Shown here: in pieces, positions 1,722 through 38,598 of the stretch
Position numbering within the stretch: position 1 is the stretch's first letter
Layout: the number at the start of each line of letters is the position of its first letter
Origin: a virus
Reading direction: 5' to 3' (one strand)
IMG/VR virus record: IMGVR_UViG_3300027708_000033
Coordinates: 1 to 64,000 of that record
Length of the DNA stretch: 64,000 bases
The notes under the pieces: model-generated
Database searches by the model: none
Told to the model about the DNA's origin: nothing
What the model saw: the letters and a program-made list of their open reading frames with translations, nothing else
Program-made: the position numbers and the translations under genes

Positions 1722-1760
1722 AGGTACATGACCTCAATGCCGCTGGACATGCGTGCATCG

Positions 1761-2104
1761 TGGACCAGCCGGGAATCGAACCCGGGTCCTAACACCGTCT
1801 TTACACTCTTCTACATGCTTAGGCAGATTGTTTGCGACCAGACGTATGACCTGCCAGACCGTCGGACGTTACCACGATTTATAGACTCCGTGGAAAAAGT
1901 CTTGTTTTGTTCTATTTATTTAAAACCTGACTGCCCAGCTAGAACTACTGCTTTGTCAGGGGCCTTAGCGGTGTAGTTAGACTACGCTGCTAGTGCGAAT
2001 GCTGAACGTGAGTTTGCATTTATTGCTTTACCCGATTCAAGAGTACGGGCGTCTCTGCATGCTTCTTTGTAAAGTTAGACATCAGTCGAAAGCCTGTCTA
2101 GCCC
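1761..2104 (-). ncRNA. ssrA: Transfer-messenger RNA (tmRNA) with proteolysis tag
   Basis: tmRNA rescues stalled ribosomes by adding a degradation tag to the unfinished protein. The 3' end (minus strand) has the conserved string CTAAGCATGTAG, a T arm (CCGGG, TTCGATT, CCCGG) and the acceptor arm CTGGTCC, which pairs with the 5' end GGGCTAG at 2104-2098, followed by discriminator A. CCA is not encoded. The 5' domain has TTTCGAC and GCATGCAGAG, as in bacterial tmRNA. The tag reading frame is 2017..1982: ANSRSAFALAA then TAG, with the resume codon GCA preceded by ATAAAT. The ALAA end is the classic ClpXP signal. Length 344 nt is normal for a one-piece tmRNA. Confidence 0.93.
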
Positions 2105-4551: not shown

Positions 4552-5116
4552 GGCTACCTCCAGGCACCCATAAGACATCGCCAACCTCACGGTTAGCGTA
4601 CCTAGACAACACAAATAAAAGGTCAGACAGACGATTTAAATACTTTGCAGCCGTGATACTCACACCCTCACCAAAAGAATGGATAGCATTCCAAGTTTCA
4701 CGTTCTGCTCTTCTAGTGACCGTTCTTGCTGCATGCAACTGCGCTGCTAGCGGTGTCCCACTAGGTAGGACAAAACTTCTTAAAACTGGCAAATCTTTGT
4801 TGTAGTGGTCAATTAGTTTCTCTAAACGAGAGACCTGGTCCTCAGTGACTCTAAGTGGAGTAACTTTAGGCTCATCGATTACTGGTGTGCAAAGGTCTGC
4901 TCCAACATCAAACAAATCATTTTGAATTTGAAGCAAAACTTTTTTCACATCGGCGTCTATGCCCATAGACAAGGCAACTCCAATACTGGAGTTAGCCTCA
5001 TCTACGGTTGAGAATGCTTCAAGTCTGGCATCGTTTTTAGAAGTTCTGCTCCCGTCTCCGAGAGAAGTTGTTCCGTTATCGCCAGTCTTTGTATATACGC
5101 TACTGATTACTACCAA
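4541..5116 (-). CDS. PduO-type cob(I)alamin adenosyltransferase
   Basis: This enzyme transfers the adenosyl group from ATP to cob(I)alamin, making adenosylcobalamin. Family marks are clear. The N-terminal ATP site is YTKTGDNGTTSLGDG followed by R..KND.R.EA and TVDEANS. There is a middle segment LPSGTPLAAQLHAARTV with TRRAERE, and the C-terminal helix YLNRLSDLLFVLSRYAN. Length 191 fits. It starts at TTG 5116 immediately after the stop of the reductase gene, so the two are co-expressed. Its product is the cofactor of the class II reductase next door, a tight functional match. Confidence 0.92.
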   Translation of the reverse strand: MVVISSVYTKTGDNGTTSLGDGSRTSKNDARLEAFSTVDEANSSIGVALSMGIDADVKKVLLQIQNDLFDVGADLCTPVIDEPKVTPLRVTEDQVSRLEKLIDHYNKDLPVLRSFVLPSGTPLAAQLHAARTVTRRAERETWNAIHSFGEGVSITAAKYLNRLSDLLFVLSRYANREVGDVLWVPGGSREE

Positions 5117-7159
5117 TTATTTCTGGTTCTCCACAATCAACTTGATTTCACAGGCGTCGGTTGTGCAGTAAGCCTCACCGATACCATCAATGCCGAGTCC
5201 ACCATAGATTCCAGCAAAGTCGATAGGGAACAACTTACCAGCCGCTTCCTCGTACTCTTCCTGAGTAATCTGTGTGTAAGGCATCTGAGGGTAAGTAAAG
5301 TTACCAGATGGCAAGAAGCTCACAGTCTTCAAGCTTCCGTCGTACATGTGGAGAACTTTTTCAACGTCCTTCGACTCAGTCTCAGGGTCAAACGAGATAG
5401 TCACAGATACAGAGTTGTCAGACCAGTAACGCTGGGCAGTAGCTGCAAGGTTCATCTTCTCGTAGATGCTCACATCTTTCTCGGCACGTTTAGCGCTTGC
5501 CTTGATTGGGAAGTACACGACTGAAGTGTGCTCTGGGTTTTCAGATGCCGGCTCAACTACGTAGTTAGCCATCTTAAATAAAGCCAACTGAGGGTCATCG
5601 TTACCGAATCTAATAGCACGGTTGAAGTATTCACCGCCTGGTGACCAGTGCGCGCCAGGAGACTCACCAGCGAGAATAGATACTGTACCAGAAGGCTTGA
5701 CTGTCGTGGTCTTAATTGACTCACGAACACCTAGCCACTCTGAGTAGATGTTGTCGTAGCGCTTTACAACTGCGTAACCCGCATCCATCCAGTTGCGAAG
5801 TTCTGGCAGTCCACGGTTGTCTGCAAAGTTAGCGATACCTGACATTGAGGTTCCGATACGACGGTTACGCTGCATGATTGCGTTAGTCTCTTCCCAGTGT
5901 GTAGGAAGAAGAGTTACTGTCTTGGCGTAAAGATAAGCAAACTTTAGAGTGCGCTTGTAGTCTTCAACATCAGTGTGGCGGTTCAAGTAAGTCTCAACAA
6001 GAGTACACATTTCGTATGACTCAAGGGACTGCTCAGCACACGGGTTGTAACCAGCGATACGCCAGTCCTTGTTGTTAATCGGGTCAGCTAGTCTACCGTA
6101 CTGCTTAGACATGTCTTCCCAAATAACACCAGGCTCACCGTTGCGAATGATGCCATCAACAATTTTTGAGAAGTCGGTGCCGACGTTTACCATGACCGAG
6201 TTGTTGCTCATCCAACCCCAACCAGGGTTCTCTGAATCATAAGAGTTACGGTCTGGAAAAACTTCAGCGTTTTTTAGGTTCAGGAAGTTGTCATCATCAA
6301 TGCGACCAACTAAAAGTTCAGCTGAGCGACGAACGTTACCTGACACTACACAACGACCAATGAGATTTCCAATGTCGGCAATATCGACTGTTGTAAGTTT
6401 TTCGCCACCGCGACCAGTGAAAATCTTCTTGATTACCTCGTGCAATTTGATTAGTGGGTCTGGGCCTGAAGCAGTTCCACCAAAGGTTGCAATAGGTGCA
6501 CCGTAAGGACGAATCTCGCTGTAATCGAACTCTAGGCTTTTTTGCCCCTTGATTAGGAAGGAGTTGATTAGTGCCACAGTAGATTCCTGCCAACCCTCAC
6601 GAGTATCAGGGATAACATAAGTAAATACTTCTTCAAGCGGTGTGTAGATTTCAAAATCCTTGTCCGCACCCTTGTCGTCAAAGCCAACACCGACACCAAG
6701 CATAGAAGCTTCCATAAGGAATGCAAACGGCTTACCTGGGTTCTGCTTGGTCATCTCCAGTGTGGACACGAATGCGCAGTTCTGTAGCGATGCAGAGTTT
6801 TTCTGACGGTTCACAAGGTCAGTACCCATCTGGCTCAAGCCACGACCAGGAGGAGACCACTTCAGGTGGAACAACCGGTCATAAAACTCTTTAGCAGACG
6901 AGGCAGCTTTAGCGTCAGACCAAGGTAGTCGTTGCTGTTTTGCGTAATCTTTCTGTAGCGAGTAAGTTCCGTTAGTTACACGCTCACAAACCTCAGCCCA
7001 AGTTTCCTTAGTGCCATCTTCTTTTTTTCGTGAGTAAGTTCTTAGAAAAGTAATTTCGCCTACAGAGTTTCCTGCAGCATCACGGAAACCAAACGGTGCG
7101 GTCTTCTTTTTGTATTCTGATACGAAATCTTCGCTTAGTTTAAAGGATAAAAATAGCAT
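5117..7159 (-). CDS. nrdJ: Adenosylcobalamin-dependent ribonucleotide reductase, monomeric class II
   Basis: Reduces ribonucleoside triphosphates to dNTPs using an adenosylcobalamin radical, without oxygen. The layout matches the Lactobacillus-type monomeric enzyme: an early LRTYSR segment, SLQNCAFVST with an active-site Cys, GVGVGFDDKG, then NPCAEQSLESYEMC with the conserved Asn-Pro-Cys-x-Glu, and VKPSGTVSILAG. The C-terminal redox pair is in AYCTTDACEIK. The start chosen is ATG 7159 (680 residues) after AGAAGG; a TTG at 7201 adds 14 unconserved residues. It is paired with its adenosyltransferase and NrdH. Confidence 0.95.
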   Translation of the reverse strand: MLFLSFKLSEDFVSEYKKKTAPFGFRDAAGNSVGEITFLRTYSRKKEDGTKETWAEVCERVTNGTYSLQKDYAKQQRLPWSDAKAASSAKEFYDRLFHLKWSPPGRGLSQMGTDLVNRQKNSASLQNCAFVSTLEMTKQNPGKPFAFLMEASMLGVGVGFDDKGADKDFEIYTPLEEVFTYVIPDTREGWQESTVALINSFLIKGQKSLEFDYSEIRPYGAPIATFGGTASGPDPLIKLHEVIKKIFTGRGGEKLTTVDIADIGNLIGRCVVSGNVRRSAELLVGRIDDDNFLNLKNAEVFPDRNSYDSENPGWGWMSNNSVMVNVGTDFSKIVDGIIRNGEPGVIWEDMSKQYGRLADPINNKDWRIAGYNPCAEQSLESYEMCTLVETYLNRHTDVEDYKRTLKFAYLYAKTVTLLPTHWEETNAIMQRNRRIGTSMSGIANFADNRGLPELRNWMDAGYAVVKRYDNIYSEWLGVRESIKTTTVKPSGTVSILAGESPGAHWSPGGEYFNRAIRFGNDDPQLALFKMANYVVEPASENPEHTSVVYFPIKASAKRAEKDVSIYEKMNLAATAQRYWSDNSVSVTISFDPETESKDVEKVLHMYDGSLKTVSFLPSGNFTYPQMPYTQITQEEYEEAAGKLFPIDFAGIYGGLGIDGIGEAYCTTDACEIKLIVENQK

Positions 7160-7230
7160 TCCGCTGCCTTCTGGATAGTGGGTGAAGGACCATCTTATCA
7201 AGTAGGTATATTGCTATTTAGCCAAATACC

Positions 7231-25982: not shown

Positions 25983-26537
25983 CTAAATAGTCGGTTGACG
26001 CAGTGCCGTGGTTTGGTCTATGCCAAAAGTGTAATTACCAGTGATATCTGGCCAAACGTATGAGTATGACTCAGGCCGCTGGCCTTTGTCTTCTGGCCAG
26101 CCAAATTGCGAGTACCAGTCATAATGCTTGTTGAGTAGCGCGCGTCTGTGGCTAGATGCTATAAGCTCAAACAAGTCGGTCTTGGCCATCCAAGTAGGAC
26201 GCTCGAGCACGTCTGAAGTTTTTACTATTTCTAAAAGCTTAGCAAACTCATAAGTCTCCTTGGCTTTATCACCAATAGTCGACTTGTAGCCACGTGACTT
26301 CCATTCTGTGACCATAGCGTGGATGTACTCAAGCAGCATTCCCTCATGCCCTTGCCACATCTTTACAGCCGGGTGATTTGCCCAACCTTTGACTGTTCTA
26401 GGTGTACCGTCTGGGTTTAGTTTTACGAGAACCATAAGAATCTGCCAGCCTTCTAAGGCTTGCTTATTCAGTCGTTTGTTGTCGAGAACCTTAGCCATGT
26501 CCTCAAAGCTGGTTGTTGCTGGAATAAATGTCTGCAT
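25983..26537 (-). CDS. MSMEG_6728-like protein (pyrimidine-dimer glycosylase-related)
   Basis: A 184-residue protein starting MQTFIP, then VLDNKRLNKQALEGWQIL, GWANHPAVKMWQGHEGML and SHRRALLNKHYDWYSQFGWP. This is the pattern of the actinobacterial MSMEG_6728 family, which is related in annotation to T4-type pyrimidine-dimer DNA glycosylase (endonuclease V). A DNA repair role is suggested, but catalysis is not shown for this family. It is longer than the usual ~130-170 residues through a middle insertion. It has its own extended -10 promoter. Confidence 0.75.
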   Translation of the reverse strand: MQTFIPATTSFEDMAKVLDNKRLNKQALEGWQILMVLVKLNPDGTPRTVKGWANHPAVKMWQGHEGMLLEYIHAMVTEWKSRGYKSTIGDKAKETYEFAKLLEIVKTSDVLERPTWMAKTDLFELIASSHRRALLNKHYDWYSQFGWPEDKGQRPESYSYVWPDITGNYTFGIDQTTALRQPTI

Positions 26538-26575: not shown

Positions 26576-27196
26576 TTAACGTTCTTTGCTCAAACTTCCA
26601 ATACTTTCATAGAGACTGCTTGTCTGAGCAAAAAATGGAGAATCGTACACAAGTACTTCATAGAAAGTTTGACCTACTGAAAAAAGCACATCATGAGGAA
26701 CAGCTATTTCAAGTGCTCTTCTACAAGTTCTGTGTGCAAACTTTTTGTATTCGTCACTTACGTACAAGATAGCATGAGCAGCAAGCATGCTTATGACTCT
26801 GTAGATTCCTTCTGCAACAGGAGGCACTTGAATTTGAGTAGGACCAATTGACCATCTTTGAGACGCACCATCAATGTCAAACAAACCTAATGCATAGTTG
26901 CCAAGATAGATTGCGTCAGTCGAGTCTGGAATTTGAAGCACATCTGGAAGACTGTTTATCTCTATTGCATCGTCTTCTAAAATAAGAATAGGACCGCCGG
27001 CTGCCTGTGCAACTTCTATTGCTCGCATGTGAGATGTTGTGCAGCCTCGGATAAACGTACTATCCTTAGTTGCTGATAATCTTAGGACTTCCTTAAAGTT
27101 ATACTTGCTAAGCATAGACTCTATTTTTCGTCGTTTGTCAGTGTCCTCATCTAAGTTGATGTAGATTACTACGACGTCACTTAGTTTTATCTGCAA
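26576..27196 (-). CDS. GT25-like glycosyltransferase
   Basis: The start chosen is TTG 27196 (206 residues), since the longer reading lies inside the upstream gene. Family marks: IYINLDEDTDKRR at the N terminus, then GCTTSHMRAIEVA and ILILEDDA (E74-D75-D76, metal and donor binding), as in glycosyltransferase family 25. Family 25 enzymes add hexoses to lipopolysaccharide or to protein such as collagen. In this phage the acceptor could be the virion, the host surface or modified DNA. The sequence overlaps the DUF6378 gene by 20 bases. Confidence 0.75.
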   Translation of the reverse strand: MQIKLSDVVVIYINLDEDTDKRRKIESMLSKYNFKEVLRLSATKDSTFIRGCTTSHMRAIEVAQAAGGPILILEDDAIEINSLPDVLQIPDSTDAIYLGNYALGLFDIDGASQRWSIGPTQIQVPPVAEGIYRVISMLAAHAILYVSDEYKKFAHRTCRRALEIAVPHDVLFSVGQTFYEVLVYDSPFFAQTSSLYESIGSLSKER

Positions 27197-27485
27197 GCTG
27201 GCCAACCTCAAAACCGATACCTGCATAACCAGCAATGTCAATCCATGTATCAGCCTGAAACTCACTCTTATTCACATAGCGAGCCATCTTCAAGCCGACC
27301 ATTGCCATTGCCACATCTTGAGCTGTAATCTCAATTGCAAAAATAACTGACCAGATTTTAGCAATACGTCCGAGGTTATCCTCAGGAGCACCATACTGCA
27401 CATCTCTGTCGCCTGCAATTATTCTTGCTGCTTCACGAAGTGCCTCGATACGAGGAAGGTCTTTACCTTGAGTTTCTTCTGTCAT
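27177..27485 (-). CDS. DUF6378 protein
   Basis: A 102-residue protein with REAARIIAGDRDVQYGAPEDNLGRIAKIW, the core of the DUF6378 phage family, followed by TAQDVAMAMVGLKMARYV and a helical end. It is widespread in actinophages and other phages; function unknown. The helical Asp/Glu-rich pattern recalls all-alpha NTP pyrophosphatases, but the full ExxE/ExxD set was not found. It lies in the run of genes that includes the NTPase and glycosyltransferases. Confidence 0.8.
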   Translation of the reverse strand: MTEETQGKDLPRIEALREAARIIAGDRDVQYGAPEDNLGRIAKIWSVIFAIEITAQDVAMAMVGLKMARYVNKSEFQADTWIDIAGYAGIGFEVGQLADKTK

Positions 27486-27895
27486 TAGCGAATCCTCTTC
27501 TCCAAGTCTTCTGGACGAAAGTGCGTGCCGTCAATAGACTTGTCAGGTGAACCAAAAATAATGTCACCTGAGCGGATAGCGCCAATAGTGCCGACCTTGC
27601 CGTTAAACGCCATGCCCTTATCTCCGACAAAAGCATTAGTTCTAACTCTGATAATTTCACCGACTTTTAGCTGACCGGCTCTAGCCTGCACCCAGACTTC
27701 ATCTTGCGAACTCTGTACGAGCGAATGCCCTTGAGCAACCTTGCCTAGAATCTCAAAGATTTCCTTAGCTTGCTCTGGAGTAGCGTCAATTTCTTCCCAA
27801 GTCTTTAGAAGTTTTAGAACCGCTCTACCTGTTCCGATACGAATTTTTGCTGCGGTGAACTGCTGGTTTATCCAGTCGTAGTTTACATTAGTCAT
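27485..27895 (-). CDS. Hypothetical protein with SH3-like end, 136 residues
   Basis: The start chosen is ATG 27895 after TGAGG, overlapping the NTPase stop by eight bases; an upstream ATG at 27946 is less likely. The N-terminal half is helical. The C-terminal half, GEIIRVRTNAFVGDKGMAFN followed by GKVGTIGAIRSGDIIFG, looks like a small SH3/KOW-type barrel that could bind nucleic acid. No named family. Confidence 0.6.
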   Translation of the reverse strand: MTNVNYDWINQQFTAAKIRIGTGRAVLKLLKTWEEIDATPEQAKEIFEILGKVAQGHSLVQSSQDEVWVQARAGQLKVGEIIRVRTNAFVGDKGMAFNGKVGTIGAIRSGDIIFGSPDKSIDGTHFRPEDLEKRIR

Positions 27896-28370
27896 TTTTA
27901 ACCTCACATTTGTTGCAGTAGTTTGCGTTGTCCGGATTTGGACCAACGTCGTCGATGGCTCTAGTACACTTTACGCACTTGACACCTTCAGCTTTTACCT
28001 CGTAACCAACGGACTGTCGTTTACGGTTCTTCTCCATCTTCTGCAAGTAGAAGTGGTTGAGTTCCTCATCTGTGCCGCCACAAGCAACAATGATGTTTGC
28101 CACAAAGTGGAGAACATCTACGGCTTCCTTGATTACTTCTTCACGGTCTGCGTATGGCTCGTCCATTTGCCAAGGCTTCCATGATAGAGGCTGGCGCATT
28201 TCAGCAAGTTCATCGTCAATAGCAAGCATGTTCCAACGGATGTACTCGATTAGATTGTTAATCTTCTCAGGTTCGTCGCCGTGCATGGAATCGTAGTCAA
28301 TTTTGTAAACGTTCTTTTGAAGGTCTTTGGTTCGTGCTAGCCACTCGCCGAACAGTTCTCCATTTGTCAT
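27888..28370 (-). CDS. All-alpha NTP pyrophosphatase (dUTPase/dCTPase-like) with zinc ribbon
   Basis: A 160-residue MazG/dUTPase_2-type enzyme that would hydrolyse a deoxynucleoside triphosphate to the monophosphate. The two Mg-binding motifs are E54-L-A-E57 and E82-A-V-D85. A Cys-x2-Cys pair at 132/135 and another at 152/155 add a C-terminal zinc ribbon. T4 gp56, which destroys dCTP and dUTP to make hydroxymethyl-dCTP replace dCTP, belongs to the same fold. The start overlaps the glycosyltransferase stop by four bases, so both are made together. Substrate (dUTP or dCTP) cannot be read from sequence. Confidence 0.8.
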   Translation of the reverse strand: MTNGELFGEWLARTKDLQKNVYKIDYDSMHGDEPEKINNLIEYIRWNMLAIDDELAEMRQPLSWKPWQMDEPYADREEVIKEAVDVLHFVANIIVACGGTDEELNHFYLQKMEKNRKRQSVGYEVKAEGVKCVKCTRAIDDVGPNPDNANYCNKCEVKND

Positions 28371-29392
28371 TTGGTTGCCTTTCGTTTTGTAATACCTAAT
28401 GTCTTATGCAAGTTCTTCTGTGCATCGTCTAGAGAGGGGATAGCTGCTAAATACTCTTCACGCTGCTTAGTAGCAATTGTATTACGCTCATCTTGCGATA
28501 GCGCCTCAATGTTAGCAGCTAGATTTCCCCATGACTGACCAATCTTTACAGTTTCTGTCCATAGGCTGGCGATAGGAGTTGCGGTGTTCATGGCTTGAAT
28601 GTATCTGTAAGTCCACCATGTGCCGTCTTTTTTATGTGGAGTAACAAGTACTCCAGTTGAACGAGCAATTTGTTCTTCTACCAAGCTGTCAGACCAGCCT
28701 TTGTTCCACTTCATCAGACTCACTGGATACACTAACCCAGTAGACACTTTTTCGACCCACGGCGAGTTAGACGAATCCGCGGACCACTTTAATCGACGGT
28801 CTACTTCATAGTGTGCAGGTGTTAGTAGCTCGGCATCTAAGTTGATTCCAACTAAGTTTTGGCTAGCATACTGTGAAAGCTGGTTGCTGACCGCTGAAGC
28901 ATCTTGCCATGGCAAACTTGGATAAATAGTTGTAGGCCAGTCAGCCGTTAGAAGCTGCTCAATAGTTGCCAGAAGACGCCTACGGACCGCATCTTGGCTA
29001 GCCTGCTGAAATCCTTGCCTATTGATGTAAAAGTCCTTGGTGAACGTGTGCGGGTTAGCTGTTACGCTCTTTAGGCTTGCAATAATCTGCCCAGGCTGAG
29101 GCGAATCAACTAGCAGCGTAAGTCGTTTGTCGTTTAGTAACTCAGTGATAACGTGCAACCCACCGTAGCAATAGTTTGCACTCAAACTTGTGAGTGGAGA
29201 AATACCCACGATTACAGAGTCAAATTGGTCTAAAAACTCTTTTGTCCATGCAATAGATGGAACTTCCCATAGCACATCGTGGCCAGCATTGCTCAGCGAT
29301 TTTTCAAGTACTCCAGCAAAACTCAATGAACGAGCATTAGCCTTGCGAGAGGCTTGTGCTGCGGACATTCCTGTCAGGAGAATTTTGCTCAT
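28367..29392 (-). CDS. GT-B-like glycosyltransferase, candidate DNA glycosyltransferase
   Basis: A 341-residue protein starting KILLTGMSAAQASRKANARS, a Rossmann-type first domain with LTLLVDSPQPGQII. A second domain has STGLVYPVSLMKWNKGW and a C-terminal donor region GVLVTPHKKDGTWWTYRYIQAMNTATPI. The layout and these three segments resemble T4 beta-glucosyltransferase (FTD..PFSQ, VIYGG, DNFITLRVWE) at low identity. It is coupled to the all-alpha NTPase and lies in the same strand block as the dCMP hydroxymethylase-like gene. Best reading: adds a sugar to hydroxymethylcytosine. Alternative: another GT-B enzyme of unknown acceptor. Confidence 0.55.
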   Translation of the reverse strand: MSKILLTGMSAAQASRKANARSLSFAGVLEKSLSNAGHDVLWEVPSIAWTKEFLDQFDSVIVGISPLTSLSANYCYGGLHVITELLNDKRLTLLVDSPQPGQIIASLKSVTANPHTFTKDFYINRQGFQQASQDAVRRRLLATIEQLLTADWPTTIYPSLPWQDASAVSNQLSQYASQNLVGINLDAELLTPAHYEVDRRLKWSADSSNSPWVEKVSTGLVYPVSLMKWNKGWSDSLVEEQIARSTGVLVTPHKKDGTWWTYRYIQAMNTATPIASLWTETVKIGQSWGNLAANIEALSQDERNTIATKQREEYLAAIPSLDDAQKNLHKTLGITKRKATK

Positions 29393-29431
29393 TTGTTTTT
29401 GGTTTCTAAAAATTAAGTGAAGTTATTCTTC

Positions 29432-29479
29432 GTGCGTAGCGCACCTAGGTACCGCCTAAAATAGACGATACCTAGGCAC
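29432..29479 (-). promoter_or_regulatory. Two overlapping alternative hairpins
   Basis: A 14-bp stem (29466-29479 with 29441-29454, all paired counting G-U) and a 5-bp hairpin GTGCG/CGCAC (29432-29444) share bases 29441-29444, so only one can form at a time. They lie between the SSB gene and the glycosyltransferase. No U tract follows, so an attenuator or processing site is likelier than a simple terminator. Confidence 0.45.
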
Positions 29480-29491
29480 AAGTTCTGTAAT

Positions 29492-30067
29492 TTAGAACGG
29501 TGACGCAGGTGCTGCAGGTGGAGCAGCAGGCGGCGCAACTTGAGCTTCAACAACTGGAGCTGCAGCTGGCGCTGGAGCTGGAGCAGGTGCAGGAGCAGGC
29601 GCTGGAGCCGGTGCAGGAGCAGCAGGAGCTACAGGAGCATCAGCGGCAGCTACAGGAGCGCCAACATAGTACTTCTTGATTTCGTTCTTCTTAGCACCCT
29701 GCCATACACGAGAACCAATCTGTGCACGGAAGACGCGGTGAAGAATAGCAGCCTCGATAGCTGAGTTGCTTGGGCTAGTTGCGAAGTACTCGCGAGTTAG
29801 ACCTAGCGCTGCCATCTTCGAGAAGAAGATGCCTAGCGCTGCTGGACTGTCCGGTGACACAACCAAGTTGTCCCAGATGCGACGCTTAGCAAACGCGCCA
29901 ACCTGGACTTCAGTTGTAATTTTGAACATGGTCTTACCTGACTGTGAAACTGCAGCCGAAGCTTCAATCACCTTCAGGTCGTAATCGCCATCTGGTAGTG
30001 GCTCGAATGAACCGCCGGTTGCTTCACCGGCGTCTTTTACTAGGTCGCCCCAGTTGAGTGAACTCAT
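29492..30067 (-). CDS. ssb: Single-stranded DNA-binding protein with Ala-Pro linker
   Basis: A 191-residue protein. Residues ~20-140 form an OB-like domain (GDYDLKVIEASAAVSQSGKTMFKI, AKRRIWDNLVVSP, FRAQIGSRVW), typical of phage SSBs paired with Sak4. A long (Ala-Pro)n linker from ~150 leads to a short hydrophobic tip SPF, like the protein-binding tip of bacterial SSB, though without its acidic run. It coats single-stranded DNA for replication and annealing and recruits partners. It is downstream of the Sak4-like gene. Confidence 0.72.
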   Translation of the reverse strand: MSSLNWGDLVKDAGEATGGSFEPLPDGDYDLKVIEASAAVSQSGKTMFKITTEVQVGAFAKRRIWDNLVVSPDSPAALGIFFSKMAALGLTREYFATSPSNSAIEAAILHRVFRAQIGSRVWQGAKKNEIKKYYVGAPVAAADAPVAPAAPAPAPAPAPAPAPAPAPAAAPVVEAQVAPPAAPPAAPASPF

Positions 30068-30113
30068 AGTTCAGTTTTCCTTATCTCTTTATGAGGACCG
30101 TCTAACCGGGTGG

Positions 30114-30878
30114 CTAAGACGACTTCTTTTTTGTTTCAGTTTTTTCACCGAAAATCATGTCGAGCATGCGCTCGATTCCCATGTCGTGCTGCTCAACGAC
30201 CTTACCTAGTCGTCCCTGCACACGCTCACCAGCTTCAAACTGGTCGGTGCGCTCAACATACATGCGACGTGCTTTGTAAGCTGGCTGAGTTGGGTCTGGA
30301 TTAGCCACAGTTTCCACGTTGATTGCGCCAAGAACATCGTAGAAATACGGTGCCTGGATAGCAAGCTGTCCCTGCAAGTATGGACGTAGTCGACCATCTT
30401 GTCCAGGTCTAGCCATTGCAGTAAGTACTACTGCCTCTAGTGGAGCTGTTGCATGCATTGTCAAGTCGCGCAAGTCACGAAGTAGAGCACCCATGTGACG
30501 AAGAAGTTCGCCCCACTGCTGCATCTGCATCTGGTTCTTGCCAGCAATTTGGTCCATGCACTTGACCTGAAGCTCCGAGATGGAGTCGATAATCAAGCTC
30601 TTGAACTGGTGCTTGCCAAGCTGTAGCCATTGGTAAGCCTTGAGAACTGTGTCGTAGTCGCGAACCATGACAACACAAGTGTCCCATGTTCCGTCAGCTA
30701 CTGGCGGTTCTTCTCGTAGTGGGTCCCAGTACTTAACGTTGATTGGTAGGAATCTGTGTCCACCTTCAACGTCGAGCATTAGGCGTGGGTATGGTGCTGT
30801 GACTGCCAAGGTGGACTTTCCAACCTTTGACTCGCCATAGACCATGATAGTTAGACTGCGTTGTACGTCAGACATCAT
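30114..30878 (-). CDS. Sak4-like RecA-fold ATPase
   Basis: A 254-residue AAA_24/RecA-core ATPase. Walker A is GESKVGKST (15-23); Walker B is FKSLIIDSISEL; a sensor-like VVLTAMAR follows. Sak4 proteins are single-strand annealing recombinases that work with an SSB and an exonuclease. Here the SSB gene is downstream and the RecB/Cas4-like nuclease overlaps upstream by four bases, which fits that trio. Confidence 0.85.
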   Translation of the reverse strand: MMSDVQRSLTIMVYGESKVGKSTLAVTAPYPRLMLDVEGGHRFLPINVKYWDPLREEPPVADGTWDTCVVMVRDYDTVLKAYQWLQLGKHQFKSLIIDSISELQVKCMDQIAGKNQMQMQQWGELLRHMGALLRDLRDLTMHATAPLEAVVLTAMARPGQDGRLRPYLQGQLAIQAPYFYDVLGAINVETVANPDPTQPAYKARRMYVERTDQFEAGERVQGRLGKVVEQHDMGIERMLDMIFGEKTETKKKSS

Positions 30879-31822
30879 TCACTTCCTTTTTTCTCATCTG
30901 TTATTCCGTAATATCCGTACGGGTCGGATGCTTCAAAAGAATCACTCAGTGCTTGCTCTGCGGCAGAACCGTCATCGATAAGCGTACACACAGAGTAAAA
31001 CTGGCACTTCCACTTGCAGTCACGACTTGGTCGTGGATAGGCTAAGAACTGGTGGTTTCCTCCAGCGTCTAGACCTTCACGCACTCGCATCATGTCTTCA
31101 AGAGTACCGTGTAGACGCTGCCAAAAAGCTCGCAGTGTAAACACGTTGTGGCGTACTTCCATCTGCTCAAAAAATGGCGGACGTGCATTTGCAGTTCGCT
31201 TTACCTTTTTGAGAAGCGTGAAGATACCACCTTCTGAACGCTCACCCTCTTTGTTTTGGGCTTGTTCAAGAAGCATGTAAGTCAGAATCTGTTCGTTCAT
31301 TGCAGCTTGACTAGTAAAGTCAGCAAACGAACCACCAACAGTTTTAAAGTCACGGAACATACGGACACCGTCACCCTTGCGGCGTACTCGCATGTCGAGC
31401 TTACCTTGAAGAATAACCTTGCCGTCCATCAAAGGCATCTCAATGATTTCTTCATTAGAGATTCTCTCTAGCTCGGCGTCAATGCCTTCGTCTTCGACCC
31501 ACTGAAGATAGCCTTCAAGCATGATGCGGCCAAGCTCGCCTTCACTGTCAATTTCACTTGTGTCGCTAAAAGTGTCAATAAGAGTTTGACGGTCTTTTTC
31601 TAGCAACTGTGCGTGAGCTTCAAGAAGTGGAATGTCTTTTGAATAGTACATGTCTAGTGCTTCGTGAATACGAGAGCCTAGAGCAAGCGCACCAGTCATG
31701 TTGGCGCTCTTTGGCTTTAGACGACGGTAGTACGATAACCACCATTTGCGTCGACAGTCTTTGAATGTTTGAATCTCAGAGTTTGAGATTCTAACCGGGG
31801 CTTTTTGTTCTTGTTCAGTCAT
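30875..31822 (-). CDS. RecB/Cas4-like PD-(D/E)XK nuclease with Fe-S cluster
   Basis: A 315-residue exonuclease. It has ISNSEIQTFKDCRRKWWLSY with C23, the GSRIHEALD motif (H53), then KLDMRV and FRDFKTVGG carrying the catalytic Asp and Lys. The C-terminal C-x3-C-x5-C in DCKWKCQFYSVC, with C23, would hold a 4Fe-4S cluster as in Cas4 and AddB. It probably resects DNA ends for the Sak4-like recombinase. It overlaps the helicase gene by one base. Confidence 0.88.
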   Translation of the reverse strand: MTEQEQKAPVRISNSEIQTFKDCRRKWWLSYYRRLKPKSANMTGALALGSRIHEALDMYYSKDIPLLEAHAQLLEKDRQTLIDTFSDTSEIDSEGELGRIMLEGYLQWVEDEGIDAELERISNEEIIEMPLMDGKVILQGKLDMRVRRKGDGVRMFRDFKTVGGSFADFTSQAAMNEQILTYMLLEQAQNKEGERSEGGIFTLLKKVKRTANARPPFFEQMEVRHNVFTLRAFWQRLHGTLEDMMRVREGLDAGGNHQFLAYPRPSRDCKWKCQFYSVCTLIDDGSAAEQALSDSFEASDPYGYYGITDEKKGSE

Positions 31823-33633
31823 TATAGGTTACCTGCCTTGTCGTCCTTGAGTAGTGCTAGTAGTTTGTCTTTGTCCTTGACGATTTGTTCAAAGTTGTCT
31901 GCCTTAGTTTCTAAGACTTGTAGTACACGTTCTTCGATAGTTCCTTCAGTGACGTAGTCCATTATAACCACAGAATCGTGAATTTCTGAACCAATTCTGT
32001 GAATTCTGTCAATTGCTTGCTTGTGCTCAACCAACGACCAAGGTCGCTGAAGCATAACCAAACGTCGACCAGCAGTCAGTGTGATACCAACACCACCAGC
32101 TGCAGCTGTAAACAACACCCATTTGATTCGACCAGACTGGAAGTCATCTACGGCTTTTTGGCGTTCGTCTTCGTCTTGTGCACCAGTGATAAGTCCATGT
32201 GGAATGTCAGCTTTAGTAAGTTCTGCACTGAGCAGCTCGATTAGTTGACGAGACACGGCGCACACCGCAACTGAGTCGTCACCAAAGTCTCCAGATTTAA
32301 TGTCGTCCATTAGTGCGTCAATCTTTGCAGATGGACCGACTAGAACGGTTTTAGTCTCACCTGTAGTCTCGTCTACTTGAAGTTCTGCAAATGAACTAGC
32401 AAACTGGAGTAAACGTGTTGTCTGAGTCAATGGACTTGGCGCTACAACCGCATCACCGTTTTCAAGTTCTGCAATCATGAGGTCACGCATCTGCTCATAG
32501 GCTTTTTTCTGCTTAGGTGACATCTCAACGTCTCGACGCTCGAACATCATCTCAGGTAGCCAAGGCAGAACGCGTGCCTTTAGCATGCGGCGCATTCTTG
32601 GATTTATAGCTGCATGGAATTCCTGCTGCATGTGCGACTTGACCCCAAGAACCATCATGCCGCCAAATGCATTTAGCATTGTGTCAATCATGCGGTCAAT
32701 CCATCTAGTTTTGCTAGGCCACTCTTCTGGAGAAATCCAGTGCAAAATTGCCCACATGTCTAGAACATTGTTTGCAATTGGGGTACCAGTCAGTGCGTAA
32801 CGAATGTCCGCATCTCCAGTTGCCGCCCAAAGTGCGCGAGTCTGTTTAGACTTAGGTTCCTTTGAACGGTGCATCTCATCGGCAATAACAGCTTTAAAGT
32901 CCATCTTGTTTAGCTCACGTAAATGCACCTCGCAACGATTCTCTGAAACCTTCTCGTCATGACCGCCGCATTCTGTGCAACGAGCAAGTGCAACTGAACC
33001 ATAAGGTGCTAATCTTGAGTGTGAACGCAACGACTCCCAGTTGATTACATAAACATGAGTGCCGTCTTCTTCAAATTGCTTTTTACGCTGAGTTGCTGAA
33101 CCTTTGATTACAGTGACGTTTACTCCTGGCCACCACTTAGCAAACTCGCGCTTCCAGTTTTTCTTTAGAGTGTTTGGGCAAACGACTAGCGCAGGAAACA
33201 CCTGTTCACCGCGTCCGTTCAGTTCTGCTAGTGCGCGAATAGCCTGAGCTGTTTTGCCAAGACCAGGCTCATCTGCTAGAAGTGCACGACGCGCTGTTGC
33301 TAGGAACTTTACTCCTGCACGCTGGTGTGGAAACAAATCTTGATAACCTTCACCGTCAGGCAGCGACTCAAGGTCGCGAAGCTCATTTGATGGAGTTATT
33401 CTAGTAGCAAGTTCGTTTGCTGCCCAATCTCCAAGCTTTCCACCGATAACTAGCTCGTCACGAAAAGTTGAGCGCAGCGCTAAACAAGTTGCCCACGAAA
33501 CCGGGATTTTCCAAAGCTGGTCTTTGGCACTGTAACTTGCGCCAGGGATACTCTTGCAAAGTTCTTTGTAACGCCATTCGGCGCCGATGATAATGTGCTT
33601 GCCTGTTTCATCAAGCTCAACGTTTACTGGCAT
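31822..33633 (-). CDS. SNF2-type DEAD/DEAH helicase
   Basis: A 603-residue superfamily 2 ATPase. FPHQRAGVKFL precedes Walker A DEPGLGKTAQ (residues 121-130). Walker B is IADEMHR, motif III ALTGTPIAN, and the second RecA lobe ends with VGITLTAG and motif VI QAIDRIHRIG. A small Cys/His-rich insert (CTECGGHDEK...CEVH) lies in lobe one. It likely remodels DNA or protein-DNA complexes in replication or recombination. It has its own extended -10 promoter at 33658 and GAAAGGA before the ATG. Confidence 0.92.
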   Translation of the reverse strand: MPVNVELDETGKHIIIGAEWRYKELCKSIPGASYSAKDQLWKIPVSWATCLALRSTFRDELVIGGKLGDWAANELATRITPSNELRDLESLPDGEGYQDLFPHQRAGVKFLATARRALLADEPGLGKTAQAIRALAELNGRGEQVFPALVVCPNTLKKNWKREFAKWWPGVNVTVIKGSATQRKKQFEEDGTHVYVINWESLRSHSRLAPYGSVALARCTECGGHDEKVSENRCEVHLRELNKMDFKAVIADEMHRSKEPKSKQTRALWAATGDADIRYALTGTPIANNVLDMWAILHWISPEEWPSKTRWIDRMIDTMLNAFGGMMVLGVKSHMQQEFHAAINPRMRRMLKARVLPWLPEMMFERRDVEMSPKQKKAYEQMRDLMIAELENGDAVVAPSPLTQTTRLLQFASSFAELQVDETTGETKTVLVGPSAKIDALMDDIKSGDFGDDSVAVCAVSRQLIELLSAELTKADIPHGLITGAQDEDERQKAVDDFQSGRIKWVLFTAAAGGVGITLTAGRRLVMLQRPWSLVEHKQAIDRIHRIGSEIHDSVVIMDYVTEGTIEERVLQVLETKADNFEQIVKDKDKLLALLKDDKAGNL

Positions 33634-33657
33634 GCTGTTCCTTTCGTCATTAAGTTC

Positions 33658-33666
33658 ATAGTATCA
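33658..33666 (-). promoter_or_regulatory. Extended -10 promoter before helicase
   Basis: TGATACTAT (TGnTATAAT with two changes) followed by GAACTTAATGACGAAAGGAACA, matching the leader family at 26562 and 38590. It overlaps an inverted repeat TATCAA/TTGATA at 33662-33678, a possible operator. Confidence 0.5.
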
Positions 33667-33720
33667 AGTAGTTTGATAAAAATACTCGTTTTTGTCTAGT
33701 ATCTTTCAAATTATACAAGT

Positions 33721-34188
33721 TTATTGAAGCAAACGGATAGGCTTCCAACCTAGTCTAATTATGTGAAGCAGTCCGTGGCGAATAGCATCTAAAGCGTGGC
33801 CTTCTCCACCAACATGCCAATACTCAAGTTTCTTTAGTTTAGGGTTGTCGAACATTCCCTTTGCGTCTGACGGCGACTGAAAATAAATGTCTGTAGTTGC
33901 TCGGCCAACATCTAGCAAGCACTGTTTAAGAATTCCAATTTGCTCAAGTGAGAACGGCGCCTGCGAGTTTCTCACAGTCTGCGCGTTGATAGTAAATCGC
34001 TCACATACTATGTCAATCTCAAGTCCCATTTGGTTTGCTGCATCTAGAGCAGCTCTTATCGGTGCTGCGTATTCTTCTTGTTGGACTTCAAGAGACCAGA
34101 CAATCTCTGGTTCCTGGCCATTAGTGTAACTAAATAAAGCCATTCCTGTTGCTTTACCTGGGTCTACTGCTAGAACTAGTTTAGCCAT
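33721..34188 (-). CDS. RuvC-like Holliday-junction nuclease
   Basis: A 155-residue RNase H-fold protein. LAVDPGKATGMAL carries the first catalytic Asp (D9), VCERF the Glu, and GEGHALDAIRHGL the C-terminal acidic and His residues, in the order of RuvC resolvases. It should cut branched DNA before packaging. It starts one base inside the stop of the polymerase gene and is co-translated with it. Confidence 0.85.
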   Translation of the reverse strand: MAKLVLAVDPGKATGMALFSYTNGQEPEIVWSLEVQQEEYAAPIRAALDAANQMGLEIDIVCERFTINAQTVRNSQAPFSLEQIGILKQCLLDVGRATTDIYFQSPSDAKGMFDNPKLKKLEYWHVGGEGHALDAIRHGLLHIIRLGWKPIRLLQ

Positions 34189-36008
34189 TAGTACTTATCT
34201 CCCCATGTCTCTAGCGGTCCATCGATTCCAGATGTGAGCGGAACTGCCCAGCCTTCTGTTGTTGTCATGCACTCTTTTACAGTCTGCATGATTTCCTTAA
34301 CGTCCTTGCGTGGAGCATTAAGAACTATTTCGTCATGAACTGGCACGATTAGTAGTTCAGTTAAATCTGCCTGGTCGAGCTTGATTAGATTACTCTTGAA
34401 GACTTCGGCTGCACCTCCTTGGATTAAATAATTGACCAATGTATAAGTGCGGTCATCGTCGCAAGGAATTCGACGTCCAGTCCAAGTTTGCACGTAGCCT
34501 TGACCCTCTGAGCGAAGACGTCTCTGACCTAAATCGTCAATCTGTCTTTGAAACATCGCCATTCCAGGGAAGCGAACATCAAACGCATCTGAAACCGCCT
34601 TCATCTGAGACTTAGTAACTCCAGCTGTAATTGCCTGCTTGTCAACACCGGCGCCATACAGACGACCATAAATTACACCCTTGATGAGATTACGGCGTTT
34701 ATCAGAACGTTGCATTGTAGGGTCTTGGTAAATCTCACGACCAATCTCAGTAAAAGGGTCAGAGCCAGTAGCATCGGCAAGGTTAAACAAGCTGATTAGA
34801 TTTTCGTCCTGCGACATAGACGAGAACATGCGGAACTCTACCTGGTCAAGGTCAGATGTAACAATTACGTGGTCATCGTCTTTAGGCAAGAATGCACGAC
34901 GAACAGTGTCATCTCCTTTTGGCAGTGTCTGCAGTGCTGGTGCAGTAATAGACATGCGACCAGTGCGAGCACCCATAGTTCTAACAGACGGGTGCATGAT
35001 TCCATCGATGTTGCCTTCAATGAAGTTCTTAAAATAAGTATTGGCTAACTTATCTGCTTTGCGCTGTGAGAGAACAGTTTTTGCCAAGTTCTGTACCTCC
35101 GGTGGACCGTCAATAGCAAGAAGTTTTAGCTGGTCTTTGGTCGCTGATTTCTGGCCTGTTGCAGTAAACTCAGTAAACTCTGCTCCAAGAGTTTCAAACT
35201 GACGGACTAGCTGCATGTTGCTTGTAATTGACAGACCGTTGTAGTTGGTCTTAGCCCAGTCTTTTACTTGTTCAGTGTATGCAGTGAGTTCGTCAAACTT
35301 CTTCTTAGAGTAGTCTAGGTCGATACGCGCACCGTTGAGTTCCATGCGAGTAACAATCTTGCGTGTCGCCATCTCAAGTTCATAGGCTCTAGAGTACGGA
35401 CCTTCAGGACCACATTTCTCCCACATCTTTTCAAAGATGCGCATAGTCAAAACTGTGTCTAGCGCACCATATGCCCAGTACGGCTGAAAGCTAGTCGGCA
35501 CAGTTCCCCAAGTCCAGCCATTCTTGTGCATCTCTTCATCTAGGTGTGACTGAAGTTGCGCAGCACGCGGGTCGACATACTGAGCAGTTAGACGCTTCAG
35601 TGCAGCAGATTCAAGTGGGTTGATAATCTGAGCCATAAGCATAGTGTCGTGTGCATTGTGCCAAGGCAGATTCCACCTTGACTGAACTGCAAACCAGCGA
35701 GCCTCAAAGGCAATGTTGTGACAGACAATTGGACCGTCAAACTTGTCCATTGCTTGGTAGAAGACACCTGACCATTCGTCCCAAGGAATCGACCAGCCAT
35801 GCTCTGCGTCACCAACCTGGACTAAACGTAGTTTACCGTGCCATGGAGAAAACGCGTGGTCTTTAGGGTTACCAGGCAGCTCACCTGTTTCAGTGTCGAT
35901 TGCAACAGCGTTCATTGGTCGACGTTCACCAAGCCAGGTAAGAAATTCTCCGGCCTTTTCGACACTATCGACTAGGTCTAGCTTTACACCATCTAATCCT
36001 GTTGTCAT
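34188..36008 (-). CDS. polA: Family A DNA polymerase with 3'-5' exonuclease
   Basis: A 606-residue replicative polymerase. The exonuclease domain (1-~190) has AIDTETGEL, HNIAFEARW and the DTMLMAQ/LDTVLTM segments. The polymerase domain has motif A SDLDQVEFR, motif B RRNLIKGVIYGRLYG and motif C PVHDEIVLN. The O-helix residue equivalent to E. coli Phe762 is Tyr, as in T7 polymerase; in viral surveys Tyr there goes with lytic phages. There is no 5'-3' exonuclease domain. It should copy the genome using primers from the Prim-Pol protein. Confidence 0.96.
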   Translation of the reverse strand: MTTGLDGVKLDLVDSVEKAGEFLTWLGERRPMNAVAIDTETGELPGNPKDHAFSPWHGKLRLVQVGDAEHGWSIPWDEWSGVFYQAMDKFDGPIVCHNIAFEARWFAVQSRWNLPWHNAHDTMLMAQIINPLESAALKRLTAQYVDPRAAQLQSHLDEEMHKNGWTWGTVPTSFQPYWAYGALDTVLTMRIFEKMWEKCGPEGPYSRAYELEMATRKIVTRMELNGARIDLDYSKKKFDELTAYTEQVKDWAKTNYNGLSITSNMQLVRQFETLGAEFTEFTATGQKSATKDQLKLLAIDGPPEVQNLAKTVLSQRKADKLANTYFKNFIEGNIDGIMHPSVRTMGARTGRMSITAPALQTLPKGDDTVRRAFLPKDDDHVIVTSDLDQVEFRMFSSMSQDENLISLFNLADATGSDPFTEIGREIYQDPTMQRSDKRRNLIKGVIYGRLYGAGVDKQAITAGVTKSQMKAVSDAFDVRFPGMAMFQRQIDDLGQRRLRSEGQGYVQTWTGRRIPCDDDRTYTLVNYLIQGGAAEVFKSNLIKLDQADLTELLIVPVHDEIVLNAPRKDVKEIMQTVKECMTTTEGWAVPLTSGIDGPLETWGDKY

Positions 36009-36499
36009 TCGTTTTCCTCAATCGTCTCTACTTCAAGCCCACAGCTGCGCAGGTAATCTAATACTTTTTCTGGCTGTCTGTGAACGTCTATTGTTCTTAT
36101 TATAGTCACGACTCTGCGCAAACCTGAGTTGCTAATAAGTTTAGCACACTGCATGCATGGAGCTCCTGTGACGTATATAGTACCGTCGTCAACTCTTGAA
36201 CGGTCTACGTATAGTAGTGCGTTTGCTTCAGCGTGAATAGATGGGCAGGAATCATAAGTATTGTCTAGCGCAGTTAGACCTTGTGCACGCGGGCACCAGT
36301 TGATGCAGTTTCCATCTACCTTTAGATTAGCTGCTGGACCGTTGTAGCCAGTTGCACTAATACGCTGGTTTGCTGATACTACAACTGCACCGACTTGAGC
36401 CCTAGAACAGACTGAGCGTTTGGCTATTAGCCGTGCTATGTCCATCCAGGTTTTATCCCAGCTAGGTCTAGAAGAACTCTCCGTCTTCACCGTCATCAT
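36005..36499 (-). CDS. dCMP deaminase
   Basis: A 164-residue zinc deaminase. The zinc site is in SIHAEANALL (His and catalytic Glu) and GAPCMQCAKLI (Cys-x2-Cys), with the N-terminal RSVCSRAQVGAVVV typical of dCMP deaminases. It converts dCMP to dUMP, feeding dTTP synthesis, and can be regulated by dCTP/dTTP. In a phage making hydroxymethyl-dCMP it would balance dCMP use between thymidine and modified cytosine. It overlaps the polymerase gene start by four bases and a small acidic protein gene. Confidence 0.9.
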   Translation of the reverse strand: MMTVKTESSSRPSWDKTWMDIARLIAKRSVCSRAQVGAVVVSANQRISATGYNGPAANLKVDGNCINWCPRAQGLTALDNTYDSCPSIHAEANALLYVDRSRVDDGTIYVTGAPCMQCAKLISNSGLRRVVTIIRTIDVHRQPEKVLDYLRSCGLEVETIEENE

Positions 36500-36713
36500 A
36501 GAATTCCTGTTCGTCTCTTTCGTCTTCGCGATAATTGTCTTCGTATGGAATCATCATTCCACTTACAAGAACCTGTGCTACTAGGAACAACGCTTCTTGG
36601 GTTTTAAACCCAACCGAGAGCAGTTCTTTGTAGAGCTCGTTGAGCTGGAGCGCGTTAATCCGCAGCGGGCTGATGTATACGTCAGACGCGTATTGGTCAA
36701 ACTCCTCTGGCAT
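36468..36713 (-). CDS. Hypothetical 81-residue acidic protein
   Basis: Function not recognised. A helical first half (LRINALQLNELYKELLSVG, then a hydrophobic segment ALFLVAQVLVSGM) is followed by a very acidic tail rich in Asp, Glu and Tyr. It starts at ATG 36713 directly after the stop of the hydroxymethylase-like gene and overlaps the deaminase gene by 32 bases. The acidic tail might mimic DNA or mediate protein binding. It is encoded in the nucleotide operon. Confidence 0.6.
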   Translation of the reverse strand: MPEEFDQYASDVYISPLRINALQLNELYKELLSVGFKTQEALFLVAQVLVSGMMIPYEDNYREDERDEQEFYDDGEDGEFF

Positions 36714-37568
36714 TTACTCACTCTTTTCTCGGTTTCTGTCAATAGACTTAACCATAGCGTCTGTGTACCATCTAGCTTCTAGAGTTAGACCAGCATACGC
36801 TTCGGCAGAGCCTGTAGCAGCTAATGCAAGATTGGCTTGATTTTGAACATCTTGCCAAGTATCTCCAGTAATAAACGGTACAGGAGTAATCTTATCAGCG
36901 TACTTCAAGTTGTCTGCCGACTCGTAGTGCTGCTCATAGATGTGTAGCGAACCTACATGGTGAGTATACTTGCCAACATCAATGCCTAGAACTGAAGCCA
37001 TAGCGATTTGCACCCTGGTGAACTGGAAGAAGTCGTAAGCAGCACCAAGCCACACATCATTTGAGCGCATGTACACACTCATGTTTAGTTTGTTGTCACG
37101 AATACGGAACTGGTGAAGTGTGGTGCAAGGATAGTCACGCTTGCCATCTTCTAGGTCAAGAGACGGGTCCCAGATAGTTACAAGTGCTTGCCGACTGTCA
37201 GGGTCTTTTTTTAGACGCTCAATGATTGGTGCGTACTGGTTTTGAGTACGTGGACCGTAAGCGCCATGGAAAGTTCCATCATCATTTGTGTAAGCCTTGA
37301 ACTGAGGGCCGACCGCTACTAGTAATTCGTGAGCAGAGACACCGCCTAGCAGTTGCATTGCTTCAACTGCACCAATACCTGGAACAGTGCCGCGGTTGAT
37401 GCCGAGTGGTAACGTGTCGTATGGATTTTCGATACGAATGACTGCATCTTCAATCTCGCGGGTCTTCTGACCACGAGGTGCTACTTCTTTACCGTGCTTT
37501 AGTACATGCTGCACTAGGTCAACGTAACCGTTGACTCCATCAGCGATGTTGATTACCGCAGAATCCAT
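36714..37568 (-). CDS. dCMP hydroxymethylase-like (thymidylate synthase family)
   Basis: A 284-residue ThyA-fold enzyme. The catalytic Cys is C148 (RDYPCTTLHQF). In ThyA the next specificity motif is LGxPFN with Asn; here it is LGAAYDFFQF with D179. Asp at this place is the mark of dCMP-using members such as T4 gp42, whose key residues are also Cys148 and Asp179. Further matches to gp42 are NPDSRR/DPDSRQ, MRSNDV, and VGSLHVYxxH/VGSLHIYEQH. Predicted reaction: dCMP plus methylene-tetrahydrofolate to 5-hydroxymethyl-dCMP. The first 16 bases overlap the kinase gene. Alternative: a dCMP methylase. Confidence 0.8.
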   Translation of the reverse strand: MDSAVINIADGVNGYVDLVQHVLKHGKEVAPRGQKTREIEDAVIRIENPYDTLPLGINRGTVPGIGAVEAMQLLGGVSAHELLVAVGPQFKAYTNDDGTFHGAYGPRTQNQYAPIIERLKKDPDSRQALVTIWDPSLDLEDGKRDYPCTTLHQFRIRDNKLNMSVYMRSNDVWLGAAYDFFQFTRVQIAMASVLGIDVGKYTHHVGSLHIYEQHYESADNLKYADKITPVPFITGDTWQDVQNQANLALAATGSAEAYAGLTLEARWYTDAMVKSIDRNREKSE

Positions 37569-38563
37569 GTGTCTTCCTTATCTTTTGTAGTTGCTAGTCT
37601 GGCTATTGCCTGACCGTATTCTGACTTACGAGAGTTTGCAAAGCGTCGTACCCATTGGGGGTGAGGGAGCACACAGTACTCTTCGTCAGTGAATCCTTGT
37701 TTTGTGAGACCTTTTTCAGCTAGTCTACCTAACGCAATGATAGGAGGTTCACCAATAGCCTTCCATAGTGAGCGAATCACGCCAGGTTCTTGGTCGTTGA
37801 TGTTGATTAGACCAATTTCCTTCCAAAATTCATCTGGCAGTGAAGTAAGTAGGTACTCACCAGAATTACTGTCTAATGGAGTAAAAGGCAAGTCAGTCTT
37901 GTGGCTATACTTCTTCTTTATATTTGGTCGGTCACCAATTAGAAGGACCTTTGGTTTTGGGACTCCAATGTACTGCGGAAAATACTCTAGATGTGAAGCC
38001 ATGATTGACACTTCTTGCGCAGCATCGACAATCATCTTTGCTAACTCAGGAAGAGCATCTAGGCTATCTGGCTTAGGAGTCAGCATCGCCGTACCTATAG
38101 AAGCTCGTCGTGCAATGTGATACTGGCTCAAGATTTCTGACAAATCAGATGTGTCTACAAAGTCATCACCACGCGCCTCTAAACGCCGCTGAATGACCTC
38201 TAGAGGCTGATAAAGCCAGAACTGTGCAATACCACGAGATGCCATAAATAGTTCCACCCAGCGCCATCCAGCCTGTCCAAGTAGACCATATCCGTCTGCG
38301 TTAGTACCTGGTCTGAACTTAGGTGCATAGGTGATTTCACCCCAGTGCCAACGGTCAGATAGGCAGATTTGTTTAAACAGATTTTCATGCTCTATAGCCA
38401 AGACGTAGTCATTTAGAACCCAATTACGTGTCAGTTCTTCTGGCTTGCCTTTATGAAAAAGCTTAATAGGAGCACTGCGAAAGCGAGTGCTAAGTTCTTG
38501 TTTTACTGCCTCAGTTAAAGAGGTCTTGCCTGAAGCGTCGGTGCCTTCAAGTACTATAAACAT
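37553..38563 (-). CDS. dNMP kinase fused to a uracil-DNA-glycosylase-like domain
   Basis: The start is ATG 38563 after AAAAGGACA (336 residues); an ATG nine codons earlier lacks a ribosome site. Residues 1-~190 are a thymidylate-kinase-type P-loop kinase: FIVLEGTDASGKTSL, DRWHWGEITYAP, and a lid-like QRRLEARGDD. Residues ~195-336 look like the UDG superfamily: PKVLLIGDRPN, LPFTPLDSNSGEYLL, PPIIALGRLAEKGL and LPHPQWVRRF. The kinase would phosphorylate dNMPs, including the modified dCMP made by the next gene, as T4 gp1 does. The role of the UDG-like part is unknown. Confidence 0.78.
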   Translation of the reverse strand: MFIVLEGTDASGKTSLTEAVKQELSTRFRSAPIKLFHKGKPEELTRNWVLNDYVLAIEHENLFKQICLSDRWHWGEITYAPKFRPGTNADGYGLLGQAGWRWVELFMASRGIAQFWLYQPLEVIQRRLEARGDDFVDTSDLSEILSQYHIARRASIGTAMLTPKPDSLDALPELAKMIVDAAQEVSIMASHLEYFPQYIGVPKPKVLLIGDRPNIKKKYSHKTDLPFTPLDSNSGEYLLTSLPDEFWKEIGLININDQEPGVIRSLWKAIGEPPIIALGRLAEKGLTKQGFTDEEYCVLPHPQWVRRFANSRKSEYGQAIARLATTKDKEDTWILR

Positions 38564-38589
38564 GCGTGTCCTTTTGTCATTGTGGTTCA

Positions 38590-38598
38590 ATTATACCA
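38590..38598 (-). promoter_or_regulatory. Perfect extended -10 promoter of nucleotide operon
   Basis: TGGTATAAT followed by TGAACCACAATGACAAAAGGACA up to the kinase ATG. It would drive kinase, hydroxymethylase, acidic protein, deaminase, polymerase and RuvC-like genes, which overlap one another. Confidence 0.7.

Follow-up and report, generated by a model that had tools for sequence, protein, structure and literature searches.

Glycosylated hydroxymethylcytosine is established in T4-like phages of Gram-negative hosts, and 5-hydroxy-dCMP synthase activity has been described in RB69-type phages (PMC13390438). In environmental contigs, two positions of thymidylate synthase-family enzymes, 147 and 177, tell modified-cytosine sequences from unmodified ones (PMC8670742). 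Here, we describe a minus-strand gene block that probably works like the T4 cytosine hypermodification pathway. It lies in the window analyzed, bases 1-64000 of the 127,237-base virus record IMGVR_UViG_3300027708_000033 (the same sequence as contig L106). The block is contiguous, its open reading frames are intact, and its coordinates (26576-38563) are those given by the first-pass annotation of this DNA, whose proposal of a T4-like route is still the best reading, although parts of its detail did not hold. Its arrangement is kept across dozens of separately assembled viral contigs and is therefore not a product of chance.

The gene at 36714-37568 (minus strand) encodes a dCMP 5-hydroxymethylase-like enzyme of the thymidylate synthase family, as had been proposed. 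The protein matches PF00303 with an E-value of 9e-29, its catalytic cysteine aligns as Cys148, and its top match in the Protein Data Bank (PDB) is the CMP 5-hydroxymethylase MilA, over aligned residues 29-267. In an alignment including T4 gp42 and SPO1 gp29, Thr149 falls at E. coli ThyA His147 and Asp179 at ThyA Asn177. This Thr147/Asp177 pair (ThyA numbering) is present in 81 of 81 viral-contig relatives of the enzyme, in T4 gp42 and in the Gordonia phages Phendrix, GMA2 and Forza; the dUMP-type enzymes of SPO1 (gp29) and Montesquieu have Asn at both positions. The window's genome holds a single PF00303 match, with neither a second thymidylate synthase nor a ThyX found in it. By these sequence tests, the protein is a predicted member of the dCMP hydroxymethylase family.

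In thymidylate synthase, Asp169 touches the folate, and Trp80 and Trp83 shield the methylene intermediate. The folate-side aspartate is retained in the window enzyme (Asp171, in the motif RSND) and in all 81 relatives, as in gp42 and MilA, and the two tryptophans are not conserved in the alignment, which fits product release by water. Together with the MilA match, these residues favor hydroxymethylation over plain hydroxylation or methylation. Hydroxylation would make the protein an RB69-type 5-hydroxy-dCMP synthase, with the sugar joined directly to the C5 oxygen. The RB69 enzyme of this type, ORF048c, likewise has Thr147/Asp177, but it has lost Asp169, RSQNC replacing the RSND shared by the window enzyme, its 81 relatives, gp42 and MilA. 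In Morganella Rgz1, whose cytosine enzyme is RB69-type, a homologue of the second paralogue in the window's glycosyltransferase (GT) family is encoded near the polymerase and next to an arabinose-5-phosphate isomerase, within a sugar cluster like that of RB69, which speaks for hydroxylation; GT homologues are, however, also paired with canonical gp42, and we consider a hydroxy-dCMP product highly improbable.

Methylation, for its part, would leave 5-methylcytosine in the DNA and the GTs serving another purpose. A dCMP 5-methyltransferase has been reported in Xanthomonas phage XP12. The window enzyme does not conserve the two tryptophans that would screen the methylene for hydride transfer, its nearest solved relative, MilA, is a hydroxymethylase, and a methyl group is no acceptor for a GT, yet a GT is found at 48 of 48 loci. 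Set against these points are the intact Asp169 and the production of 5-methyl-dCMP by ThyA N177D alone (literature quoted in PMC8670742), and we give a methylating enzyme very little credence.

The gene at 28367-29392 (minus strand) encodes a GT-B protein, predicted to be a DNA hydroxymethylcytosine GT from its structural model, its Foldseek matches and its co-occurrence with the hydroxymethylase. The AlphaFold2 (AF2) model, built from 22 aligned relatives, has a pLDDT of 89 and a pTM of 0.88. Foldseek retrieved the GT-B enzymes SenB and phage HY126 glycosyltransferase; T4 alpha-GT (1y6g) was a weaker match (TM 0.42 to the query length, compared by fold only), and the top match among viral structure models was a protein of Gordonia phage Phendrix. 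On this model, we are confident that the predicted fold is GT-B, as the first-pass annotation had it. Neither Pfam nor PDB sequence searches returned a match for the protein, and a pattern search found no relatives in host genomes. The profile of the second GT-B paralogue (GT1) retrieves the window GT, so that both paralogues belong to one family. T4 beta-GT and RB69 ORF003c were ruled out as sequence relatives, their profile match not being significant; the family is mostly unannotated and, as judged by profiles, differs in sequence from these two enzymes while having the same predicted fold.

This GT and the hydroxymethylase occur together. Among hydroxymethylase-anchored loci with enough downstream sequence, 48 of 48 have a GT-B-type gene directly after the SSB-like gene, a count that, like those that follow, overstates the evidence, since the contigs (few genera, many near-duplicates) are not independent lineages. 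The slot holds two paralogues in 37 loci, one in 2, a GT4-like gene in 8 (a class assigned by eye, with no Pfam match) and a mixed content in 1. Conversely, a hydroxymethylase lies within 10 kb in 17 of 18 GT-anchored loci with sufficient flank, and on the 18th contig it is present just past the fetched flank. A tblastn search with the GT in 50,697 phage records matched exactly 14 (DSL-LC01 and 13 Gordonia phage records), which are the same 14 that carry the closest hydroxymethylases; the hydroxymethylase Asp was read directly for DSL-LC01, Phendrix, GMA2 and Forza. Some 20 kb separate the GTs from the hydroxymethylase in Forza, so that the co-occurrence is not explained by simple neighborhood. 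Where the first-pass annotation had named genes scattered among relatives as the sign of a false reading, strict co-occurrence was found instead.

T4-like phages, too, have homologues of the second paralogue. Three of them, Erwinia FBB1, Stenotrophomonas IME13 and Aeromonas phiAS4, carry canonical gp42, and in each the GT homologue adjoins a UDP-galactopyranose mutase (UGM), as in DSL-LC01. In DSL-LC01, a furanose sugar is probable because the second GT-B paralogue stands beside UGM. GT and UGM pairs of the T4-like Erwinia, Stenotrophomonas and Aeromonas phages and of phage C48C1 are located at L202:2886-5011, L203:1-1954, L101:2772-4954 and L102:6001-8033, and suggest that the DNA of these phages is furanosyl-modified as well. 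UGM was rejected as a component of the pathway in general, being found in DSL-LC01 only among 39 records. In one subgroup of loci (L056:18145-20852, L061 and L068), a GT4-like protein is followed by an APH-like kinase, a HAD hydrolase and a nucleotidyltransferase, possibly a sugar-activation cassette. A broader and more tentative proposal, on which we remain somewhat doubtful, is that these phages represent a widespread, unrecognized lineage of cytosine-glycosylating actinophages with their own paired GT-B family and an exchangeable operon slot, related phages having different DNA sugars. Its slot variants would be the GT-B pair, GT with UGM (furanosyl-hydroxymethylcytosine, for example galactofuranosyl-hydroxymethylcytosine), GT4-like with kinase, HAD and nucleotidyltransferase, and GT-B with GT25. 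Our literature search found nothing linking actinophages or UGM to hydroxymethylcytosine, which is weak evidence, as it covered open-access sources only.

In the T4-like pathway as we envisage it, the 36714-37568 enzyme would convert methylene-tetrahydrofolate and dCMP to 5-hydroxymethyl-dCMP, whose conversion to the triphosphate the adjacent kinase would begin. The pyrophosphatase at 27888-28370 would remove competing dCTP (and dUTP), yielding dCMP in the former case, and the phage PolA would put hydroxymethyl-dCMP into DNA, where the GT-B enzyme at 28367-29392 would glycosylate the hydroxymethyl group, with a nucleotide sugar as donor. A second GT-B paralogue is present in most relatives; it would have been lost in the window's clade, which may employ the GT25-like enzyme in its place. 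The modified DNA would be protected from host nucleases. Family membership, specificity residues, folds and co-occurrence were computed, and from them we infer all the reactions, the sugar, how much of the cytosine is replaced and the protection from host nucleases. Branched sugars on DNA, which had been raised earlier, are speculation.

Several points weigh against this pathway. Besides the redundancy of the contigs, the proposal derives from computation on sequence; profiles of the GT family gave no significant match to T4 beta-GT or RB69 ORF003c, and no UGM was found in the window's phage. A C5-cytosine DNA methyltransferase with intact catalytic Cys and Glu lies near these genes in most relatives and in Forza (for example, L006:28375-29619 and L103:8687-9946), and is absent from the window's operon. 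Its presence is odd because, with all cytosines substituted at C5, it would have no substrate in phage DNA; partial modification, or an enzyme acting on host DNA or otherwise, may explain it. Finally, phage C48C1 carries a GT and a UGM of these families without a thymidylate synthase-family enzyme, as would be expected if the cytosine enzyme were real but the GTs glycosylated cell-surface or virion polymers, such as cell-wall galactan, and not DNA. The envelopes of many actinobacteria are rich in furanose, which counts for such a role, as do further GTs scattered in these phages (at 18309, and a GT2 enzyme at G000 125606-126352). The published interpretation of the DSL-LC01 mutase as a host cell-wall gene is also of this kind (PMC10611076). 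The GT of the block nevertheless co-occurs strictly with the hydroxymethylase, even where the two are not adjacent, and sits within a replication and nucleotide operon, and its homologues are paired with gp42 in T4-like phages whose hosts are Gram-negative; we therefore regard surface polymers as an unlikely target.

Further enzymes of the block support the T4-like reading. The all-alpha dUTPase_2-family protein at 27888-28370 (minus strand; PF08761, 4e-11), conserved in the operon, is a predicted gp56-like dCTP/dUTP pyrophosphatase. Its family profile matches T4 gp56 at 29.8 bits, with controls below zero, identifying it by profile as a remote gp56 homologue and agreeing with the gp56 fold assigned earlier. 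The gene at 37553-38590 (minus strand) encodes a dNMP kinase fused to a C-terminal uracil-DNA glycosylase (UDG)-like domain. That it is a kinase stood; its earlier likening to T4 gp1 did not, as the enzyme is thymidylate kinase/YorR-like (PDB profile match to 2axp/YorR at 5.6e-9; Foldseek match to YorR at 4e-7) and gp1 is absent from its PDB profile matches, which are YorR and thymidylate kinases. Its C-terminal UDG-like piece (37553-37978, minus strand) matches PF03167 at 3.8e-4, under the curated cut-off, and is conserved in aligned viral relatives. The gene overlaps that of the hydroxymethylase by 16 nt, and its true start is probably Met10. A defense-library search returned only weak P-loop matches, for this kinase.

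The dCMP deaminase (36005-36499, minus strand; PF00383, 1.4e-21) and the family A DNA polymerase PolA (34188-36008, minus strand; PF00476, 7.5e-53), which would incorporate the modified dCTP, are both in the block, as had been reported. A DUF669/SSB-like protein (29492-30067, minus strand; PF05037 and synteny) forms the upstream anchor of the variable GT slot. Two further operon members are conserved: the protein at 27485-27946 (minus strand), which is 41% identical to its homologue in DSL-LC01 and has further homologues in the corresponding position of relatives, and a DUF6378 protein at 27177-27485 (minus strand; PF19905, 5e-27), 66% identical in DSL-LC01. A pyrimidine dimer DNA glycosylase (25983-26537, minus strand; PF03013, 2e-18, and synteny) is the downstream anchor of the block.

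Three GTs had originally been placed in the pathway. One is solid, the GT-B enzyme discussed above; the second is a probable GT25-like enzyme at 26576-27265 (minus strand), for which the Pfam match to GT25 (PF01755; E-value 0.035, 14.4 bits) falls below the cut-off of 24, while a PHROG glucosyltransferase match (2e-5) supports it. Its gene is found only in the window and the two contigs closest to it, L107 and L108, all of which are without the second GT-B and the methyltransferase, and it occupies the place of the C5-cytosine methyltransferase of relatives; its further relatives are in cyanophages. It is a clade-specific gain, a single evolutionary event, and the enzyme may replace the lost second GT-B transferase. 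The third, the supposed GT-A enzyme at 18309, is not linked to the block: its gene lies outside and is not co-conserved with it, and just two fetched relatives have this gene, close to an opposite-strand GT. The protein has no Pfam family, and its PHROG matches include a weak glycosyltransferase.

The window carries WhiB-like genes, and its nearest named relative is Actinomycetia phage DSL-LC01 from Dishui Lake; on these grounds, the sequences point to an actinobacterial host, among freshwater actinobacteria. Elsewhere in the window, a cobalamin adenosyltransferase gene adjoins a B12-dependent ribonucleotide reductase (4541-7201, minus strand), and a tRNA-Trp lies with a phage-encoded tmRNA (1624-2104, minus strand; tag ANSRSAFALAA). 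Beyond the window, the minus strand encodes an N6/N4 DNA methyltransferase (G000 123312-124472, equal to L005:16075-17235) and the GT2 glycosyltransferase (equal to L005:18369-19115).

The first-pass annotation knew of no such gene set in actinophages. The set is already present, unrecognized, in sequenced actinophages, with its core in DSL-LC01, Forza, Phendrix, GMA2, GodonK and Sixama under other names or none. If the pathway is real, it would extend glycosylated hydroxymethylcytosine to freshwater actinobacterial phages and to Gordonia phages that can be cultured, and would add a mostly unannotated family of DNA GTs with possible new sugars (furanoses). It would also give a new reading to the mutase for which a host cell-wall role was published. 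Forza, Phendrix and GMA2 are isolated Gordonia phages, which makes the proposal directly testable.

Compared with T4, the window has the same Thr147/Asp177 hydroxymethylase, gp56-family pyrophosphatase, dCMP deaminase, nucleoside monophosphate kinase and GT-B enzyme, clustered with replication genes. The differences are that the T4 kinase is gp1, whereas that of the window is thymidylate kinase-like with a UDG-like domain; that the T4 polymerase is family B, and not PolA; and that the window GT-B belongs to another sequence family. The 5-arabinosyl-dC pathway of RB69 and Mosigvirus (PMC6024577, PMC13390438) similarly combines a thymidylate synthase-family cytosine enzyme with GT-B enzymes, and the Rgz1 homologue of the window GT family lies inside an arabinosyl cluster of this type. 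Unlike the RB69-type enzyme, the window enzyme has Asp169; the GT profiles do not retrieve ORF003c, and the arabinose-5-phosphate isomerase/kinase cluster of the RB69 pathway was not seen in the window. The MetaGPA environmental modified-cytosine contigs share an Asp177 thymidylate synthase-family enzyme with deaminase and pyrophosphohydrolase domains, but there the hydroxyl is carbamoylated, unlike the glycosylation proposed here (PMC8670742). The word "glycosyltransferase" is absent from the main text of that study, where the only such enzymes mentioned are group 1 glycosyl transferases, of unmodified contigs. DSL-LC01 and the Gordonia phages Forza, Phendrix, GodonK, GMA2 and Sixama have the same hydroxymethylase and GT families, together with the kinase and pyrophosphatase where examined, and the genes carry the annotations thymidylate synthase, auxiliary gene or hypothetical. 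In the Gordonia phages, the GTs are elsewhere in the genome, whereas the operon of DSL-LC01 has the same order as that of the window, with an extra GT, a UGM and a C5-methyltransferase.

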